Shown piece by piece: positions 10,760 through 19,114 of a DNA stretch of 32,798 nt. The notes under the pieces are model-generated. The model was not told where the DNA came from. It worked only from the letters and a program-made list of their open reading frames with translations, and ran no database searches. The position numbers and the translations under genes were made by a program. Numbering within the stretch: the first letter of the stretch is position 1; the number at the start of each line of letters is the position of its first letter. This DNA is from Bacteriovoracaceae bacterium (lineage in GTDB: Bacteria > Bdellovibrionota > Bacteriovoracia > Bacteriovoracales > Bacteriovoracaceae): contig CANHJD010000013.1 of assembly GCA_947461145.1 (NCBI GenBank), positions 1 to 32,798 of the forward strand, given 5' to 3'.

Positions 10760-12094
10760 TCAAGACACCACTTCAGTAATGTGAAAGACCTTACCTCTTC
10801 CAGATTTTTTAGACAAATACATCATTTTATCTGCGAACTCGATAATAGACTTCGCACTGCTGGCATCATTTGGATATTCTGCAATCCCAATTGATAGTGA
10901 TAATTTATACTTAATCTCAGAATCTATTTTGAATTCAGCCGATTTCACCGCCTCAGATATTCTGATCGCAATTTTTTTCGAATCCTCAACGGTTGATGAA
11001 GGCAAAAGGACAATAAATTCATCACCACCATATCGGTAAACGAGATCGTTTGATCTCAATTGAGCTTTTACAACTGTGGCCATATCTACAAGAAGCTGAC
11101 TTCCAACAATATGCCCATACTGATCATTAACATTTTTAAAGTAATCGATATCGATAAAGAGAAGACTAAATCCTTTCTTCTCAATTGAATAACGGGAAAT
11201 ATAGTAACTTAAATCTTCCAAGAGCTTTCTTTGATTGAATAAGCCTGTTACCTCATCGGTAAGAGAAAGATTAAGTATATGCTCTCTTTTCCTTGAATCA
11301 GCAATAATTGAAAGTGAAGTTCTTAAGACATTAGATAAATAATCGGAAATGATTTCGTTGATGGCAAACATTGATTTATTTCTAACTACTAAGTAAGAGA
11401 ATTTATTTTGTCCACCTTTTACGAGGAAATGGAATCTATCCTTCTCAAACCTTAAACCAAAGATTAAACCGGATGAATCTTTTAAGAACCGATTTATCCT
11501 GATTTGACGATGCTGATTCAAATCAAAAATCGACTTAAGATCTTTTGAAATTTCAAATTCTGAACTATATAAAACATGCTTTTCTATCTGGAAAAAAAGA
11601 TCAAGATAATGATTCAAACTCTCTGCGACATCCTCCACAGATAAAAAACTTTCTGGCCGAGAAAAAAAATGCAAAACAGCTCTCTCAGGGCTCCAATCTC
11701 CGGTGTGCATGACTTCGTGTAACTTAAGTCGGTTGATCACTTGACGTAAATTTTCTTGTTCCAAAGGGAGAGATAAAAAATCAAACAATCCAGATCTTAT
11801 AAATTCTACTGCGCCTTGGGAGTCAAACTTGGGTGACAAAAGAATAATCGCAGATCTAGAAAATTTTAGCCCTAATCGTCGCAGATCATGGCAAGTCTTT
11901 TGAGGCTGCTTATTAGAAAAGTAAAAGACAGCATCAATTGTTTTTTTTTGAAAGCCATCAAGATCTTCAATATCATGGAGAAATGAAATACGTCCAACAA
12001 TCCCATTTTCCTTTAGGGATTTTTTTATGGCCTCTATTGAAAATGAGTCAAGGCCAATGGCAAGAATTTCGAATCTCTCTGTTTTATCAATCAT
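10760..12094 (-). CDS. Diguanylate cyclase (GGDEF) with N-terminal pseudo-receiver domain
   Basis: 444 residues. The C-terminal GGDEF domain starts at LTDEVTGLFNQRKL and has an intact active site RYGGDEFIVLLP. An inhibitory I-site RSND lies five residues upstream, so it should make c-di-GMP with product feedback. Residues ~8-125 have the pattern of a response-regulator receiver (strand at EILAIGL, then SAIILLSPKFD and SGLFDFLSLPL). However, the phospho-acceptor Asp position reads VFYFSN and the conserved Lys before Pro is Leu, so phosphorylation is unlikely. A helical/PAS- or GAF-like middle (~150-270) is unassigned. Its ATG overlaps the stop of the upstream acidic coiled-coil gene (TAATG), indicating coupled synthesis and probably a functional pair. 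No EAL domain is present. Confidence 0.92.
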   Translation of the reverse strand: MIDKTERFEILAIGLDSFSIEAIKKSLKENGIVGRISFLHDIEDLDGFQKKTIDAVFYFSNKQPQKTCHDLRRLGLKFSRSAIILLSPKFDSQGAVEFIRSGLFDFLSLPLEQENLRQVINRLKLHEVMHTGDWSPERAVLHFFSRPESFLSVEDVAESLNHYLDLFFQIEKHVLYSSEFEISKDLKSIFDLNQHRQIRINRFLKDSSGLIFGLRFEKDRFHFLVKGGQNKFSYLVVRNKSMFAINEIISDYLSNVLRTSLSIIADSRKREHILNLSLTDEVTGLFNQRKLLEDLSYYISRYSIEKKGFSLLFIDIDYFKNVNDQYGHIVGSQLLVDMATVVKAQLRSNDLVYRYGGDEFIVLLPSSTVEDSKKIAIRISEAVKSAEFKIDSEIKYKLSLSIGIAEYPNDASSAKSIIEFADKMMYLSKKSGRGKVFHITEVVS

Positions 12095-14193
12095 TACATG
12101 TCTATATTTTTCTTTAATGCCTCAAGAGCCGTTTTTTTGTCTGATTCATCCTCTAAAACCGAAATTGCACTACGAAGAGTTTTTATTGCTTTATCAAGTT
12201 TATCTTCCAGTTCGAAACGACTTTCAACTGATTTCTTTTCCTGGACTGAAATAGATTCCATATCAAACTCCATTGAATCCAGTTTACGCTTCAACTCAAG
12301 AATTTTTAAATCCCTATTCCTAATTTGTGCTTCAGAGTCAGACTTAAGGAGTTCCAACTTCTGCTCCAATTCTTTTTCACGAAGCTGTATCTTTTTTATG
12401 TCTATTTTATTTTTCTGAGCAGATTTATCTAACTCCACGAGGAGAATCTTATTTTTCTCCTCTAAGATAAGCTTCTTTTCTTCGAATAACTTAACTCTAT
12501 CTTTTAATTCACCTATTTCATCATTGAGTTTTTTTCTTATTATTGAAAGTTCAATTTTCTTTTCATCTAACTCTGCTCTCATCGTTAATTGCTGACGATT
12601 TTGAATAATTTTCCCTTCCTCCAAATTTTGAATTTTAGTAAGAAGCTCTTCACGATCTAAACGTAAGTTTGAGATTGTCGCCTGCATTCTCTCCATTTCG
12701 CCTGAGTAAGCACCAGATATTTCACGTAACTCCTTACCATAACTTCCATCATAAGATGCCTTCTCTTCTTGAGTCTCTTTTGATTCTTTCGTCTCTTTTG
12801 ATACCTTCTTTTTGGATTTTTCTTCCTTTACAGGGGCTGGAGTCTCTTCAACAGAAAAATCGATACTACCCAAGTCGAGATCATCAGAAACTAACGGGGT
12901 ATCTAAATTATTTTCACTAGAAATTTCGACCTGATCAATTTCTGATAAATTATCATTTAAAGATAGCGACATTAAATCATCATTTAAGTCACTACTTAAA
13001 CTATTTTCACCCAATAAATCGTCACTTAAATTATCCCCACCAAGCAGATCTTCAGAAAATTCTAATGAAGGATCATCAACTGAATTCAGTGAGAGCAAAT
13101 CATCTTCCAATTCCTCTGATAAGCCTTTAGCTGCTTTAATTTCAACCTGTGAAGCATCGAAATCCATTAAAGCATCAATCTCCTTCAACTTCTGCATAGC
13201 TTCATCTGATAGATCTCCATCCTCGACTTCAGAATTGGCATTATTTTCTGAAGAGTTGAAATTTAAATTATCAGAATCCTTGGTATGGTTCTCATTCTCA
13301 TCGCCAAGAGACGGAGGCAATTCACTTTCAGGTTCGTCAAAACTTAGTTCGCCAATATTTTCAATTTGCTCATCTTGATTTTCACCGAGTTCAAGACTCT
13401 CATCACCAAGATCAAAATCCATCCCATCTGAATCTTCCGTATTTAGATCTGGTATTTCACCATCGTCAGATAAATCGAGACTTGAATCATCATCGATTGC
13501 TAAATCAAGGCCCTCTTCCTCTGCACTGTTGGCAGTGATTTCCCCATCTGAACCTAACTCTAAATCTCCGAGGTCATCCAATGATAATTCCTGATCCTTA
13601 TCGCTCATATCAACTCCTAAATCGATTTCATCTGGAACACTTGGGGCAACCTGCCGAGGTGTATCCTTCAAGACTGTTTTAATATTTTTTTTATTTTCAA
13701 AAACCTGTGAAAAAAGAAGTTCAATTTCTTTATTCTCAGGAAGCTCGCATAATTCTTTGAGTGATTTTTCTAACTCAGGATCAAAAGCATTTGAGATTGA
13801 AATTGCCTGTTTAGCAGAAGTATTTTTTGATTCAACCTTAAGCATATTGCCGAGTATTTCAATCAGGCTTTGTTGATCATCTTTGTGCGAAACATAAACA
13901 TCCCCACCGACTGGGGTTGTTTTATGTGATAGCTGATCTATCTGAGCGCTTTCGGCCATGACGTAAATGATTTTAGACGTTTTAAATGAATCCCTAGCTT
14001 GCAAAATGAGCTCATCTAAAGCTTCTGACGTTTTATCTAAATAAACAAAAAACAGTAATTCTTCTTCGCCATTTTCTCTAATTTGAGAAAGACTTTTTTT
14101 ATCACTAACCCAAATAGCATCATCCAGAAAAAAAATTTTCTTCTGGAACTCTTTCATGGGTACGGAATTCAAACTTATTATGTAGTTGGACAT
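12094..14193 (-). CDS. Pseudo-receiver / acidic linker / coiled-coil protein
   Basis: 699 residues, no exact family recognised. Residues 1-120 look like an alpha/beta receiver-like domain (LLFFVYLDKT, SKIIYVMAES, GGDVYVSHKDD). D53 sits roughly where a receiver Asp would be, but the other acidic and Lys markers are poor. Residues ~190-460 are a very acidic Asp/Glu/Ser/Leu-rich low-complexity region with recurring DLGS/DDLLS/ENSL-like units. A Lys/Glu linker follows (KSKKKVSKETKESKETQ), and residues ~490-690 form a long coiled coil. Receiver-acidic linker-coiled coil resembles polarity proteins such as FrzS and RomR of Myxococcus and Bdellovibrio, so a scaffold or polarity role is plausible but inferred. 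It is coupled to the GGDEF gene and divergent from the YkuD/bactofilin operon. Confidence 0.8.
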   Translation of the reverse strand: MSNYIISLNSVPMKEFQKKIFFLDDAIWVSDKKSLSQIRENGEEELLFFVYLDKTSEALDELILQARDSFKTSKIIYVMAESAQIDQLSHKTTPVGGDVYVSHKDDQQSLIEILGNMLKVESKNTSAKQAISISNAFDPELEKSLKELCELPENKEIELLFSQVFENKKNIKTVLKDTPRQVAPSVPDEIDLGVDMSDKDQELSLDDLGDLELGSDGEITANSAEEEGLDLAIDDDSSLDLSDDGEIPDLNTEDSDGMDFDLGDESLELGENQDEQIENIGELSFDEPESELPPSLGDENENHTKDSDNLNFNSSENNANSEVEDGDLSDEAMQKLKEIDALMDFDASQVEIKAAKGLSEELEDDLLSLNSVDDPSLEFSEDLLGGDNLSDDLLGENSLSSDLNDDLMSLSLNDNLSEIDQVEISSENNLDTPLVSDDLDLGSIDFSVEETPAPVKEEKSKKKVSKETKESKETQEEKASYDGSYGKELREISGAYSGEMERMQATISNLRLDREELLTKIQNLEEGKIIQNRQQLTMRAELDEKKIELSIIRKKLNDEIGELKDRVKLFEEKKLILEEKNKILLVELDKSAQKNKIDIKKIQLREKELEQKLELLKSDSEAQIRNRDLKILELKRKLDSMEFDMESISVQEKKSVESRFELEDKLDKAIKTLRSAISVLEDESDKKTALEALKKNIDM

Positions 14194-14336: not shown

Positions 14337-15314
14337 GTGGGAAAAGTAATTTTAATTGCTATATTTCTGACTTTAACGATCGGGAACGTTTTTGCTGAAG
14401 AATATCTTCCATCAAATATTTTAATGATGGATGATAAGTTTTCTCATCATGTGATCCTTGTTGAGAAAGCTACTCATAAGCTTCATCTTTTTGAGAACTC
14501 AATTACAGCTCCCAAACTAGTTAAGACCTACAATTCTGTTACTGGTAAATTTAAGGGAAATAAATTCATTAATGGTGACCATAAAACTCCTGAAGGGATT
14601 TATACCATTTATGATTTTCTCTCAAAAGAAGAACTCCTCAAACGTCATGGAAAATATGCAGAAATTTATGGCAGTGGTGCCTTTCCAATGAATTATCCCA
14701 ATTTCATAGATGAGAGGGCCGGTAAAACGGGCGGAGGAATTTGGCTCCACTCAACTGACGATGACAGCAGGATCTCCAAAGGCCTAGACTCAAGAGGTTG
14801 TGTGGTTCTTCAAAATGCAGACTTAAAAGATATTTCTCAATATATCGAACTTGAACATACTCCAATTGTGGTGGTTCAGGATGTAACGTTTTTGTCAAAA
14901 ACTACTTGGGAGAGAAATAGAAACGATATTAATGATGCAGTTTCAAAATGGGCAAAGGCTTGGCAAAACAAAGATTTTGCATCATATATTGCGAGTTATG
15001 ACCCTCAACGCTTTCATGACCGCACGAAGGGAAATTACAATTCTTACAAGACCTATAAGCAAGCAGTCTTTTCACGTCCAGACTCACCAAGTATTAAACT
15101 TGATTTTATCTCCATAATGGCAAATTCAGATTATGCTGTTGTTCAACTTCAGCAGGACTATCGCTCCTCAATTATCAATGATACCGGTAAAAAGACTCTC
15201 TACCTACAAAAAGATACAAACTACGATTGGAAAATTGTAGGAGAGCTTTGGACAAGATCACCACAAAGCAACGTAGCCTTCAAGCCAACAATGCGTTTTT
15301 TTAAAGATCAATAA
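14337..15314 (+). CDS. YkuD L,D-transpeptidase/carboxypeptidase with NTF2-like C-terminal domain (Bd1075-like)
   Basis: 325 residues from GTG, with GGGAGG 4 nt upstream. The signal peptide MGKVILIAIFLTLTIGNVFA predicts cleavage after A20 and export to the periplasm. The YkuD domain spans ~35-182 and has the catalytic block H138 S...S-R153-G-C155 (GGGIWLHS then DSRGCVVLQN). Residues ~195-325 (VSKWAKAWQNKDFASYIASYDPQRF) form an NTF2/SnoaL-like domain of the Cds6 type. The same two-domain layout is described for Bdellovibrio Bd1075, an L,D-carboxypeptidase that edits peptidoglycan asymmetrically to curve the cell. Orthology is inferred, and transpeptidase activity is equally possible. It is the first gene of an operon with a bitopic coiled-coil protein and a bactofilin; its stop overlaps the next ATG (TAATG). 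Confidence 0.88.
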   Translation: MGKVILIAIFLTLTIGNVFAEEYLPSNILMMDDKFSHHVILVEKATHKLHLFENSITAPKLVKTYNSVTGKFKGNKFINGDHKTPEGIYTIYDFLSKEELLKRHGKYAEIYGSGAFPMNYPNFIDERAGKTGGGIWLHSTDDDSRISKGLDSRGCVVLQNADLKDISQYIELEHTPIVVVQDVTFLSKTTWERNRNDINDAVSKWAKAWQNKDFASYIASYDPQRFHDRTKGNYNSYKTYKQAVFSRPDSPSIKLDFISIMANSDYAVVQLQQDYRSSIINDTGKKTLYLQKDTNYDWKIVGELWTRSPQSNVAFKPTMRFFKDQ

Positions 15315-16054
15315 TGAAAGAACCTATTCAGCAAAGTGGGCAGGATGTTTCAATTGTCATATACGACGCTCCTCTTCCTCCTCGATATTTAAGATTTTCG
15401 AAGAAATTTATTAAAACTATTTTTTTCGTTATCCCAATAACTCTGGGCCTAATTATTTTGACTCTTATTTTCTTTGGGATTAGTAGACAAATTGAGCAAT
15501 CCCCTTCAAAGATCTTACCTAGCATAGTTAGTGATGAATCAAAATTAGGCGAACTAGAGATTGAATTAAAATCACTTCGTGAAAGTAATGAATTACTCCA
15601 AAATAAATTGGCAACTCAGACAATAAATGAAAATAATCAGGAAGACCCCTATCTTTTGGCCGTTAAAAAGCCATACGGAATGCAGAATTTAATTTCTGAA
15701 AATAAGGTAACTCTTGACCAATTTGAGTTTTCCACAACAACCGATAAGATAAATTTCAAATTTCAAATTATTAACAATGACCCTGAATCAAAAGTTTCAG
15801 GTCATATTATTGTATTTATGATTTCAAAGCTTGGAATTATAGGATATCCAGAAGCTGTTAATGCTGCATTTGGGTCAGGTGTAAAGTTTTCGATGGGCGA
15901 ACCATTTGCAGTATCAAGACTACGTCCAACCAATGCAGAGTTCTTAATAAAACCGTTTGGAGAATCAGTTAAGTTTCTCATCTATATTTTCTCTCGCGAA
16001 GGAGATCTTCTTCAGATGAAAGAAACTGAATCCTACAACCTATCAGGTAAATAA
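15314..16054 (+). CDS. Bitopic membrane protein with coiled coil and periplasmic domain
   Basis: 246 residues, family not recognised. An N-terminal cytoplasmic tail of ~34 residues contains VSIVIYDAPLPPRYLRFSKK. One membrane span follows near 35-57 (FFVIPITLGLIILTLIFFGI). A short coiled coil lies near 74-100 (LGELEIELKSLRESNELLQN). A C-terminal beta-rich periplasmic domain covers ~115-240 (QFEFSTTTDKINFKFQIIN, SGHIIVFMISKLGIIGYPEA). The topology links cytoplasm to periplasm, and the flanking genes encode a periplasmic peptidoglycan enzyme and a cytoplasmic bactofilin. It could therefore connect the two, with the PPRY-containing tail as a possible bactofilin contact. That role is inference. 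It starts on the previous stop, and the next gene begins 2 bases after its own stop. Confidence 0.82.
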   Translation: MKEPIQQSGQDVSIVIYDAPLPPRYLRFSKKFIKTIFFVIPITLGLIILTLIFFGISRQIEQSPSKILPSIVSDESKLGELEIELKSLRESNELLQNKLATQTINENNQEDPYLLAVKKPYGMQNLISENKVTLDQFEFSTTTDKINFKFQIINNDPESKVSGHIIVFMISKLGIIGYPEAVNAAFGSGVKFSMGEPFAVSRLRPTNAEFLIKPFGESVKFLIYIFSREGDLLQMKETESYNLSGK

Positions 16055-16056
16055 TT

Positions 16057-16404
16057 ATGAATGAAACTGATTTCAGAAAATTTAATTATAATGTTCTTGG
16101 AGCGAATTCTTCAATCAAAGGTGACTTAACCCTTACGGGAGATGCAATTATTACATCCAAGATTGAAGGAAGTGTTGAAGTAAAAGAAACTGGAAAACTT
16201 GTTTTGGAACGAGGAAGTCATATTATTGGTAAAGTTAAGGCAATCGACCTCGAAATCTTTGGTCAAGTTGATGGAGAAATTGAGTGTTCAGGGATTGTCT
16301 CTATCAGATCAAGTGCCCATGTTGTTGGCTCAGTGAAATCAGCTCGATTGGTGATCTACCCGGGAGCTGTCGTAGAAATGACTGCCAACTCCCAAGTAGA
16401 ATAG
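16057..16404 (+). CDS. Bactofilin (DUF583 family)
   Basis: 115 residues, a compact single-domain bactofilin. The core from ~14 to 110 is a series of short beta repeats with regularly spaced Gly and hydrophobic residues (ANSSIKGDLTLTGDAIIT, KIEGSVEV, GKVKAIDLEIFGQVDGEIE, VVGSVKSARLVIYPGAVVEM), as expected for the right-handed beta-helix. The N-terminal tail (MNETDFRKFNYNVLG) is short and could bind membrane or a partner; there is no Pro-rich C-tail. Bactofilins polymerise without nucleotides and position cell-wall enzymes. Here the enzyme is encoded two genes upstream in the same operon. AGGT lies 8 nt before the ATG. Its stop is 2 bases from that of the convergent M16 gene, with no terminator between. 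Confidence 0.95.
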   Translation: MNETDFRKFNYNVLGANSSIKGDLTLTGDAIITSKIEGSVEVKETGKLVLERGSHIIGKVKAIDLEIFGQVDGEIECSGIVSIRSSAHVVGSVKSARLVIYPGAVVEMTANSQVE

Positions 16405-16406
16405 AA

Positions 16407-17759
16407 TTAAAGAAATTTTTTATAATCTAAGATTTTGACAGGCCTGATTCGAGAAAGAGTCTTCTCTAGGCTCTTATCTCCAACAACCACAATAGTTAAC
16501 CTCTCCCATGGAAAAGCCTCAAGACTTGCCTGAGAAAGAGCTTCTGGTGTTAGTGCAGCAATAATTTGTGGATATTTTTCAAGTTCACTTAGACTTCTAT
16601 TTTGATGATCATAAATCATTATTTGCGTTAGAAAGGCATTCGTCTCTTCAAATGCAAAAGCAAAGCTTCCAATTTGATGCCCCTGCTGATGCTTAAATTC
16701 CTGAAGATCAATTTTATTAGCACTCAGATCAGTGAAAATATCTCTGACAATAGTAATGGCTTCTGGTGTAGTCTCTGTTTTAGAGAATGTCATTATACCT
16801 GCCCTGCCGTAATCTCTTTGCATTGATACATAGGCACCCGCAGAATAAGTTAATCCCCTTTTCACACGCAATTCTTGGATCAATTTTGAGGTAAACCCTC
16901 CACCTAAAAAGCCAGCAAGGAAACCATAGCTATCATTCTTGCCCAAAATCTCATTCGCTGTTACATATCGCCCAATACGAATCTGTGCCTGATTTGCTCC
17001 ATTTACTGGAACAAGATAAATAGCACTTTGTGTTTCGGGCTTAGTTAATTCTATCTTCTTTAAAGATTTTTCTGAGGACCATGGACAGTTTTTCGAAATA
17101 ACTTCCTTAAGTTTGTAGGCCTCAGCTGGCCCAGAAAGATAAAGCACTTTTCTAGCTTTATTCAATTCATTCAGCCTTTTTTTCAATTTCACTGAATCGA
17201 GTTTATCGAAACTCTCTAAAGTTCCTTCCGCAGATTTTGCAAACGGAGTCCCAGTCAATGTGACCTCTCTAAATACCCTATCAGCCAAAGTGGAATGAGA
17301 ATTAACAATACTTTTAATTTGATTCTTAGAGCGACTAACGTAGGACTTAAGCTCTACCTCAGGAAACTGTGCATCCTTAAACATTTCACAAACTTTTGTA
17401 ACAACTGGAACAATATCTTTTGTTAAACCTTGAATACTATATGTTGAGTATTCGTGAGTGACTGCTCGTCTTAATTTTGTTGCATAGAAATCAAAATATT
17501 CCGCTAATTCTTCTTGAGAATCTTTTGATGTTCCCGAGGACATTTGCTCGAATGAAGCCTGAGTTAGGCCTGAAAACTCTTCGTTTAGAGCCCCGTCCTG
17601 AAAGTAGATAATGGCATTATAACGTGGGAACTTATCATCTTCAATCCAAACGACTTCCAAATCTCCCCATTTATCTCTCTTAACATTATTTAAGAATGAA
17701 GCAGAAAAAGCAGAAATTGATTTAAAAAGAATTAAGGCAAATATTATTTTATTTCTCAT
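16407..17759 (-). CDS. M16-family peptidase-like protein lacking the zinc motif
   Basis: 450 residues from the ATG at 17759, chosen because it gives a clean signal peptide (MRNKIIFALILFKSISAFSA) and GTGAG lies 7 nt upstream. A GTG at 17771 would overlap the previous stop by 4 bases and is possible. The M16 fold is recognisable from GLTQASFEQMSSGT, the mid-domain FLGGGFTSKLIQELRVKRGLTYSAGA and the late half. The HxxEH zinc site is absent: the equivalent place reads LTQASFEQM. It is therefore predicted to be the non-catalytic partner of the neighbouring M16 protein, as in alpha/beta mitochondrial processing peptidase and other bacterial M16B pairs. The location is periplasmic. Confidence 0.88.
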   Translation of the reverse strand: MRNKIIFALILFKSISAFSASFLNNVKRDKWGDLEVVWIEDDKFPRYNAIIYFQDGALNEEFSGLTQASFEQMSSGTSKDSQEELAEYFDFYATKLRRAVTHEYSTYSIQGLTKDIVPVVTKVCEMFKDAQFPEVELKSYVSRSKNQIKSIVNSHSTLADRVFREVTLTGTPFAKSAEGTLESFDKLDSVKLKKRLNELNKARKVLYLSGPAEAYKLKEVISKNCPWSSEKSLKKIELTKPETQSAIYLVPVNGANQAQIRIGRYVTANEILGKNDSYGFLAGFLGGGFTSKLIQELRVKRGLTYSAGAYVSMQRDYGRAGIMTFSKTETTPEAITIVRDIFTDLSANKIDLQEFKHQQGHQIGSFAFAFEETNAFLTQIMIYDHQNRSLSELEKYPQIIAALTPEALSQASLEAFPWERLTIVVVGDKSLEKTLSRIRPVKILDYKKFL

Positions 17760-17767
17760 ATTTAATC

Positions 17768-19114
17768 TCACTTATTTTTATTCCACACAGAAACCAGAAC
17801 GCTTGGTCGGGAGAACGTTTCACGACAAAGACCTTTAACTTCTTGTTCAGAGACTTTGTCAAAAATATCCAGTTCACTCTTATAGAATCTCCAATCCCCA
17901 AAAACGACTTGTCTCTCCCCAAGAAATCCTGCCAGACCTGAATTTGTATCTAGGCCACTATAAAGTAGTGCAAGGTAATTATTTTTAACTTTCTGAATAT
18001 TTTTCGCTGTTATTTCAGTTTCACAAAATGAGATCAATTTTTTTACTAAATCATCTCGAAATTCTTTCAGATTAATACCTTTTATTAATTCGCCTCCAAC
18101 TGAGAAGAACCCCGTTTTTTCCAGAGACTGATGAGAGGCATAGATAGAACTGGCGATAGGTTTTTCAATTAGAACATATTGCTTTACAAGAGATGCGCTT
18201 TTTCCAGAGCCAATAATGGACGCCAAGACATCCAGGCCATAACCTTTTGGGTGGCCAGATTTATAAGTCGTAAAGCCCAACATGAATAATGGGTTAGGAG
18301 ACTCACCTTTTCTAGAAATTATTTGTGACTCTTTCCAATTAGGAATAAAATCACTTTCTTTCAATTCTTTGTGAGCCTTTTCAACAGTTGGTGAAGAAGA
18401 AATCTTTCCAAATTTTTCTTTTATTAAGTCTTTTGCCTTGGTTATATCAATGTCCCCAACAAGTATGATTTTTGCATTATTTGGAGCATAGAAACGCTTG
18501 AAATACTGGTACATCTGGTCTCGGCTAACATTTTTTATGTCTTGAATTTCACCTATCACAGAGCGACCATAGGGTGTGCCCTTGAAAATCGCGGACATCA
18601 TCTCAATATATATCTGCCCTTTGGGAGAATTTTCATAGCGCATCTTTCTTTCTTCAAGAACGACATCTCGCTCTTTATTAAAATCTTCATTGTCTAAAAG
18701 AAGATTCTCCATCCGATCAGCTTCTATATCTAAAATTTGCTCAAGTTCACTTGAAGGCATATTTTCGTAATAAACTGTCATGTCATTCGTAGTATAGGCG
18801 TTAGTAGATCCTCCGCTTCCCTCAATGATGAAATCAATTTTATTTTTCCCATACTTTTTAGCCCCCTTAAACATCATGTGTTCCAGGAGATGACTCGCTC
18901 CAGTGATACCTGGAACTTCATTTTTACTACCAACATTGTAAAAAGTTTGAATTGAAAAAATGGGAAGCTTGGAGTTGCGAACAATTAAAGCAACAAGACC
19001 ATTTTCCAGCTTCAATTCTTCAACATCTATATTTATGCTCTTTGAAAGAGTTGCGGTCTCTTTAACTGTGGAACATCCTAACAGCAAAGCAAATGACAAA
19101 AACCAAATTCTCAT
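17768..19114 (-). CDS. M16-family zinc metalloprotease, lipoprotein
   Basis: 448 residues from the ATG at 19114 (AAGGA 7 nt upstream). The track's earlier TTG start would add residues before the signal peptide. The signal MRIWFLSFALLLGC carries a lipobox LLGC with C14 lipidated, so the protein should be membrane-tethered. The inverted zinc motif HLLEH is at 75-79, and the distal zinc-ligand region VVLEERKMRYE lies near 151-162. The C-terminal half includes FMLGFTTYKSG and ASIIGSGKSASLVKQ. It is an active-site-complete M16B peptidase followed by its zinc-less paralogue. Its start codon is only 14 bp from the start of the divergent metallo-hydrolase gene, so their promoters must overlap coding sequence. 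Confidence 0.92.
   Translation of the reverse strand: MRIWFLSFALLLGCSTVKETATLSKSINIDVEELKLENGLVALIVRNSKLPIFSIQTFYNVGSKNEVPGITGASHLLEHMMFKGAKKYGKNKIDFIIEGSGGSTNAYTTNDMTVYYENMPSSELEQILDIEADRMENLLLDNEDFNKERDVVLEERKMRYENSPKGQIYIEMMSAIFKGTPYGRSVIGEIQDIKNVSRDQMYQYFKRFYAPNNAKIILVGDIDITKAKDLIKEKFGKISSSPTVEKAHKELKESDFIPNWKESQIISRKGESPNPLFMLGFTTYKSGHPKGYGLDVLASIIGSGKSASLVKQYVLIEKPIASSIYASHQSLEKTGFFSVGGELIKGINLKEFRDDLVKKLISFCETEITAKNIQKVKNNYLALLYSGLDTNSGLAGFLGERQVVFGDWRFYKSELDIFDKVSEQEVKGLCRETFSRPSVLVSVWNKNK

Follow-up and report, generated by a model that had tools for sequence, protein, structure and literature searches.

A three-gene operon in the draft genome of a Bacteriovoracaceae bacterium probably encodes a cytoskeleton-to-wall morphogenesis module, a reading to which we assign a probability of about 60%. 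In such a module, a bitopic protein, hereafter the adaptor, would tether a predicted LD-carboxypeptidase to a bactofilin and thereby change cell shape locally. Whereas bactofilin-M23 modules are already known, our results suggest a new link, that of the Csd6/Bd1075 enzyme class to bactofilin. In the open-access full-text literature, we found neither a description of the adaptor nor a gene-context link of YkuD-NTF2 enzymes to bactofilins.

RESULTS

Organization of the operon

The window, that is, the whole analysed stretch of 32,798 nucleotides, belongs to a 2.65-Mb draft assembly with a completeness of 86%. The operon occupies positions 14337-16404 of its forward strand and comprises the genes for a YkuD-NTF2 enzyme, the bitopic adaptor, and a bactofilin (Table 1). 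The enzyme and adaptor genes share one base (TAATG), and two bases separate the adaptor gene from the bactofilin gene; the three overlapping or near-touching genes of a preliminary description were thus located exactly. A divergent gene lies upstream (12094-14193, reverse strand), and a convergent gene (16407-17771, reverse strand) lies two bases past the operon. Flanked in this way, the operon forms a self-contained block of the size of a transcription unit. Matches to consensus promoters were not commoner in the window than in shuffled sequence, and terminator-like sites numbered 5 compared with 1.4 in shuffles, yet none was located at the operon end, and neither kind of site was used further.

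Table 1. Features of the operon in window coordinates, with residue numbers referring to the respective protein
Feature	Coordinates	Strand	Remarks
YkuD-NTF2 enzyme of the Csd6/Pgp2/Bd1075 type, predicted LD-carboxypeptidase	14337..15314	+	325 aa, GTG start
Sec-type signal peptide MGKVILIAIFLTLTIGNVFA	14337..14396	+	From sequence reading; low AlphaFold2 confidence at residues 1-20
YkuD catalytic domain, residues 38-179	14448..14873	+	Pfam, E 2.8e-16
NTF2-like (Cds6_C) domain, residues 198-303	14928..15245	+	Pfam, E 1.3e-18
C-terminal tail FKPTMRFFKDQ	15279..15311	+	AlphaFold2: coil, pLDDT 73-83
Bitopic adaptor ('mid')	15314..16054	+	246 aa, ATG start, no named family
Predicted cytoplasmic beta-hairpin, strands 11-16 and 24-29	15344..15400	+	AlphaFold2 pLDDT about 90; candidate bactofilin-docking element
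Long helix with transmembrane segment, residues 30-62	15401..15499	+	AlphaFold2 and hydrophobicity
Predicted periplasmic helix or short coiled coil, residues 75-101	15536..15616	+	AlphaFold2
Predicted periplasmic beta-sandwich, residues 132-237	15707..16024	+	AlphaFold2 pLDDT about 95
Bactofilin	16057..16404	+	115 aa, ATG start, PF04519

Divergently from the operon, the region 10760-14193 (reverse strand) encodes a GGDEF protein and a 699-aa acidic, coiled-coil protein that has no Pfam match. This gene pair adjoins the place of the operon in most Bdellovibrionota loci, and the coiled-coil gene persists even at loci that lack the enzyme or the entire operon.

The enzyme and the bactofilin

The closest PDB match of the enzyme is Bd1075 (7o21, E 3e-50), with Pgp2 and the secreted protein 4xzz, which we take to be Csd6, ranking behind. 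Together with the Pfam domains, this match bears out the proposed membership of the Bd1075 family (YkuD plus NTF2). The residues H138, G154, and C155, which include the catalytic histidine and the cysteine of the RGC motif, are invariant in an alignment (A2) of 31 homologues, and W305, just past the NTF2 domain, aligns with W303 of Bd1075, the numbering of which was verified on the HD100 protein. On the basis of its sequence, the enzyme is predicted to be an LD-carboxypeptidase. In a quick maximum-likelihood tree of 101 proteins, the Bacteriovoracaceae enzymes do not cluster with the Bdellovibrionaceae clade that contains Bd1075.

A C-terminal tail, FxPSxRFF, is typical of the Bacteriovoracaceae enzymes and missing from Bd1075. 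It was considered as a docking peptide of operon-linked enzymes and rejected, because two unlinked enzymes of the Bacteriovoracaceae type found in another family (L232 and L156) retain the tail or a close variant; the motif thus marks a clade and not linkage. Two genomes of another family (G142 and G148; loci L231 and L232) harbour an additional YkuD-NTF2 gene of the Bacteriovoracaceae type that adjoins neither an adaptor nor a bactofilin gene, probably as a result of horizontal transfer. Further variants of the enzyme's context were observed. Gammaproteobacterial YkuD-NTF2 genes often lie behind a second, divergent YkuD gene as a tandem pair (L189, L190, L195, L203, L206, L217, L219, L226), and in one family (f2) a shortened YkuD enzyme, apparently devoid of the NTF2 domain, still adjoins a bactofilin (L056, L058, L067), as does a 76-aa mini-adaptor in two of these loci (L056, L058).

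The third gene product matches PF04519 with an E-value of 3.8e-19, exceeding the curated cut-off, and is one of two bactofilins in the genome. It is predicted to polymerise and to be membrane-associated.

The adaptor and its likeness to LmdC

Searches of Pfam and NCBIfam and a PDB sequence search assigned the 246-aa adaptor to no family. The protein has one hydrophobic segment at about residues 35-60, and an AlphaFold2 model built with 40 homologues reached a mean pLDDT of 87.7. The hairpin would lie in the cytoplasm and the beta-sandwich in the periplasm. The analysis supports a conserved three-gene module with the compartments assigned in the preliminary description, namely a periplasmic enzyme, a bitopic protein, and a cytoplasmic polymer. 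Foldseek retrieved only generic beta-sandwiches for the adaptor, the best being the B. subtilis IPI structure 3isy (TMt about 0.6), and the function of the adaptor was therefore not deduced from its fold.

The N-terminus proved more informative. Outside its own family, a model of this region matched, among the reading frames fetched, virtually no proteins other than LmdC-type M23 peptidases, and the register of the hairpin agrees with the N-terminus of these proteins. In all 14 Bdellovibrio-like genomes (g81), the only adaptor match covered residues 3-86 of a frame of about 340 aa (E 1e-6 to 2.5e-5), and each such frame that was fetched encodes an M23 protein. A profile-profile comparison with the LmdC-type N-terminus placed the hairpin and the transmembrane segment in register with a probability of 83%; the hairpin alone, which is too short for significance, gave 6%. 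Since the cytoplasmic hairpin of LmdC binds bactofilin (PMC10945521), this likeness leads us to propose that the adaptor is an LmdC-like protein lacking an enzyme of its own, in which a docking domain may have replaced the M23 enzyme.

Weak adaptor matches in Bdellovibrio and in families f11 and f27 were discarded as candidate adaptors, since those that were read corresponded to the LmdC-type M23 N-terminus or to transmembrane and coiled-coil matches. In Bdellovibrio and a relative (L137, L145), the LmdC-type M23 gene lies behind a gene for a PP2C-like phosphatase and not beside a bactofilin gene.

Conservation and loss in Bacteriovoracaceae

Within the phylum sample, the enzyme and adaptor genes are adjacent in 87 of the 88 Bacteriovoracaceae genomes that have both: 83 by a simple gap rule and four in which the adaptor match was split in two, so that the gap was merely apparent. 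In the remaining genome, the genes are split over contig ends. Such adjacency indicates that the linkage is not due to chance, and the refuting condition of the preliminary description, rare co-occurrence of the three genes in relatives, clearly fails within this family. Wherever the contig continued, the Bacteriovoracaceae loci that were read had a bactofilin next, and among 73 non-redundant, fully read loci, the adaptor is flanked by enzyme and bactofilin in 71, the other two being cut by contig ends.

However, synteny within Bacteriovoracaceae extends to the GGDEF, coiled-coil, and M16 genes that flank the operon. The conservation in this family consequently overstates the selection for linkage, and each adjacency does not count as independent evidence. 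The conserved flanks also fit a layout that is inherited synteny devoid of functional meaning. We consider this explanation highly improbable, since the same pairings are found amid different neighbours in other phyla and also as fusions, and the three genes were also lost together; recurrence in unrelated neighbourhoods largely refutes it. The co-loss occurred in genus g53, whose four genomes (88-99% complete) have no enzyme, no adaptor, and no bactofilin, the second bactofilin included. The operon is absent there between the same flanking genes, with only 94 and 122 bp left in two of the genomes, and the loss of all three genes is one evolutionary event.

Other Bdellovibrionota and Bdellovibrio

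At E <= 0.001, the adaptor profile matched 156 of 291 Bdellovibrionota genomes, some of the matches being weak and confined to the N-terminus. With rare exceptions, a single bactofilin is present in Bdellovibrionaceae-like genomes; adaptor-bearing genomes mostly have two. Of 41 adaptor loci from Bdellovibrionota other than Bacteriovoracaceae, 40 have an adjoining bactofilin gene, for the most part in a shared syntenic position, and the enzyme is in most cases unlinked to this pair.

In the genome that we take to be B. bacteriovorus HD100 (G115), and in its relatives, the profile search detected no adaptor homologue. The YkuD-NTF2 gene of HD100 adjoins two M16 genes with no adaptor gene beside them (L235). 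Its single bactofilin (L236) is presumably Bd3904, and bd3904 is co-transcribed with parAB (PMC7186360). In HD100 and relatives (L235, L238, L192, L207, L212), the YkuD-NTF2 gene lies near the M16 pair that flanks the Bacteriovoracaceae operon, on the opposite side.

Banks et al. stated that no mechanism is known for the one-sided placement of a wall enzyme (PMC8938487), and the preliminary description had offered the operon as an answer for Bd1075. This suggestion had to be abandoned for Bdellovibrio: HD100 and its relatives lack the adaptor and have a single Bd3904-like bactofilin, the enzyme lies away from the adaptor-bactofilin pair in most other Bdellovibrionota, and the quick tree does not place the window enzyme with the Bd1075 clade. 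Bd1075 is an LD-carboxypeptidase targeted to the convex face, for which W303 at the end of the NTF2 domain is needed (PMC8938487); as it reaches this face in a genus without the adaptor, targeting of this enzyme family is possible in its absence.

These observations also bear on an alternative in which two functional pairs share the operon. Adaptor and bactofilin would then form a membrane-cytoskeleton scaffold, for example one anchoring bactofilin or another wall machine, and the enzyme would localise itself through binding of its NTF2 domain to peptidoglycan. In favour of this alternative, adaptor and bactofilin occur with no linked enzyme in 39 of the 41 other Bdellovibrionota loci, the NTF2 domain of Bd1075 itself directs targeting (PMC8938487), that of Pgp2 reportedly binds fragments of peptidoglycan directly (PMC8938487), and membrane clients can substitute for the membrane anchor of a bactofilin (PMC12448750). 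Nevertheless, we regard it as rather unlikely, owing to the arrangements found beyond the phylum.

Recurrence in other phyla and domain fusions

With the enzyme alignment as query, a scan retrieved full-length adaptor relatives from Desulfobacterales, other 'deltaproteobacteria', KSB1, and others, each encoded immediately after the enzyme. A bactofilin was present in all 14 genomes tested from this set and its relatives, compared with 4 of 14 controls. Across other phyla, which are mostly Desulfobacterota-like, this position of the adaptor is the usual one, and in over 20 loci it occurs with no adjoining bactofilin, which is at odds with two separate pairs. The exact enzyme-adaptor-bactofilin order of the window recurs in two loci (L288 and L298), with enzyme and bactofilin confirmed by Pfam.

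When 297 genomes from one such phylum were searched with an adaptor profile built partly from enzyme-adjacent sequences, the best matches, which alone were read, comprised mostly enzyme-adaptor-M99 clusters and several adaptor-bactofilin pairs, along with the two loci of exact order and fusions of enzyme and beta-sandwich. The M99 neighbours are Csd4-type carboxypeptidases. Since the Csd6-type Pgp2 of Campylobacter produces the substrate of the Csd4-type Pgp1 (PMC10151779), such a cluster is biochemically sensible. One gene row (L198) comprises a Csd6-type enzyme, the adaptor, M99, an LmdC-type M23 protein, and a bactofilin. The description of the module as self-contained therefore holds for the window operon and not for loci elsewhere, where M99 and M23 enzymes join it. 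In 6 of 41 loci of other phyla, no partner lies within 300 bp of the adaptor.

The YkuD and NTF2 domains are also fused to an adaptor-type beta-sandwich in at least three genomes (L194/L272, L278, and L279; L216 is a weak case), a further point against two independent pairs. The L194 fusion protein of 542 aa contains YkuD at residues 95-227, NTF2 at 249-349, and the beta-sandwich at 428-541 (E 6e-21), and its gene lies behind ParA-like and ParB-like genes, named by eye, and a bactofilin gene. The fusions in L194/L272 and L279 adjoin a bactofilin. The three clear fusions cluster in the tree and may thus have a single origin. Together with the recurrence beyond the phylum, the fusions render a physical chain far more probable than the layout by itself.

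DISCUSSION

Overall, functional coupling of the enzyme, the adaptor, and the bactofilin is strongly supported, and circumstantial evidence points to the two interfaces that would connect them, between hairpin and bactofilin and between beta-sandwich and enzyme. In the mechanism that we propose, the bactofilin polymer would form under the inner membrane, and the adaptor would dock on it through the cytoplasmic beta-hairpin, cross the membrane, and present the beta-sandwich in the periplasm. There, the beta-sandwich would recruit or regulate the separately encoded LD-carboxypeptidase, so that tetrapeptide trimming would be concentrated above the filament and could change the shape of the cell locally. 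A role in curvature, and one-sided placement by the operon, may follow; the former is suggested by analogy with the known roles of the enzyme families.

The same module may instead govern general wall maturation, the tripeptide level, division, or cell width. Bactofilins also serve stalk and bud-neck (PMC10945521) and chromosome functions (PMC7186360), and the organism is known from an assembled draft genome alone. However, Csd6, Pgp2, and Bd1075 (PMC8938487), as well as the M99 partner Csd4/Pgp1 (PMC10151779), were found as determinants of curvature or helical shape. We consider a role other than curvature unlikely, though somewhat less so than two separate pairs; it overlaps the module favoured here, so that the probabilities given to the various readings do not sum to one.

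Beyond the window, the adaptor may represent a family of several phyla that connects LD-carboxypeptidases of the Csd6/Bd1075 type, and often M99 carboxypeptidases of the Csd4 type, to bactofilin across the inner membrane, a generalisation for which we see an even chance. If true, it would constitute a general targeting device for curvature enzymes hitherto thought to be independent of bactofilin. The proposed link has short, testable parts, namely a hairpin of about 20 residues, the beta-sandwich, and the C-terminal tail of the enzyme. Moreover, a natural contrast exists between module-bearing Bacteriovoracaceae, genus g53, which lacks the module, and Bdellovibrio, where the enzyme occurs in the absence of the adaptor.

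Comparison with known systems

The closest parallel is BacA-LmdC of Hyphomonas neptunium and Rhodospirillum rubrum (PMC10945521), which modulates curvature in R. rubrum (PMC10945521). Like the adaptor as modelled, LmdC is a bitopic protein with a cytoplasmic beta-hairpin, a transmembrane helix, and a periplasmic coiled coil, and its gene is adjacent to that of a bactofilin. Unlike LmdC, the adaptor has no M23 match in Pfam and carries a beta-sandwich instead, the hydrolase being encoded by the separate YkuD-NTF2 gene. Bd1075 (PDB 7o21; PMC8938487) shares with the window enzyme the YkuD-NTF2 architecture and the W303 position, kept as W305. Its gene, however, is unlinked to bactofilin in a genome without the adaptor, whereas the window enzyme has the extra tail and belongs to another branch of the quick tree.

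The adaptor clusters contain the same enzyme families as the Csd6/Csd4/Csd1/CcmA system of H. pylori and Pgp2/Pgp1 of C. jejuni. The adaptor gene of Desulfobacterota-like genomes lies between those for Csd6-type and Csd4-type enzymes, and one cluster also includes M23 and bactofilin. In H. pylori, Csd6 was reported not to interact with CcmA, Csd5, or Csd7; these data had argued against a link of the Csd6 class to bactofilin, for which the adaptor is now a concrete candidate. Finally, in the BacA-PbpC system of Caulobacter crescentus (PMC12448750), a bactofilin recruits a membrane-bound client via the cytoplasmic N-terminal region of that client, although PbpC is a peptidoglycan synthase, unlike the non-enzymatic adaptor.
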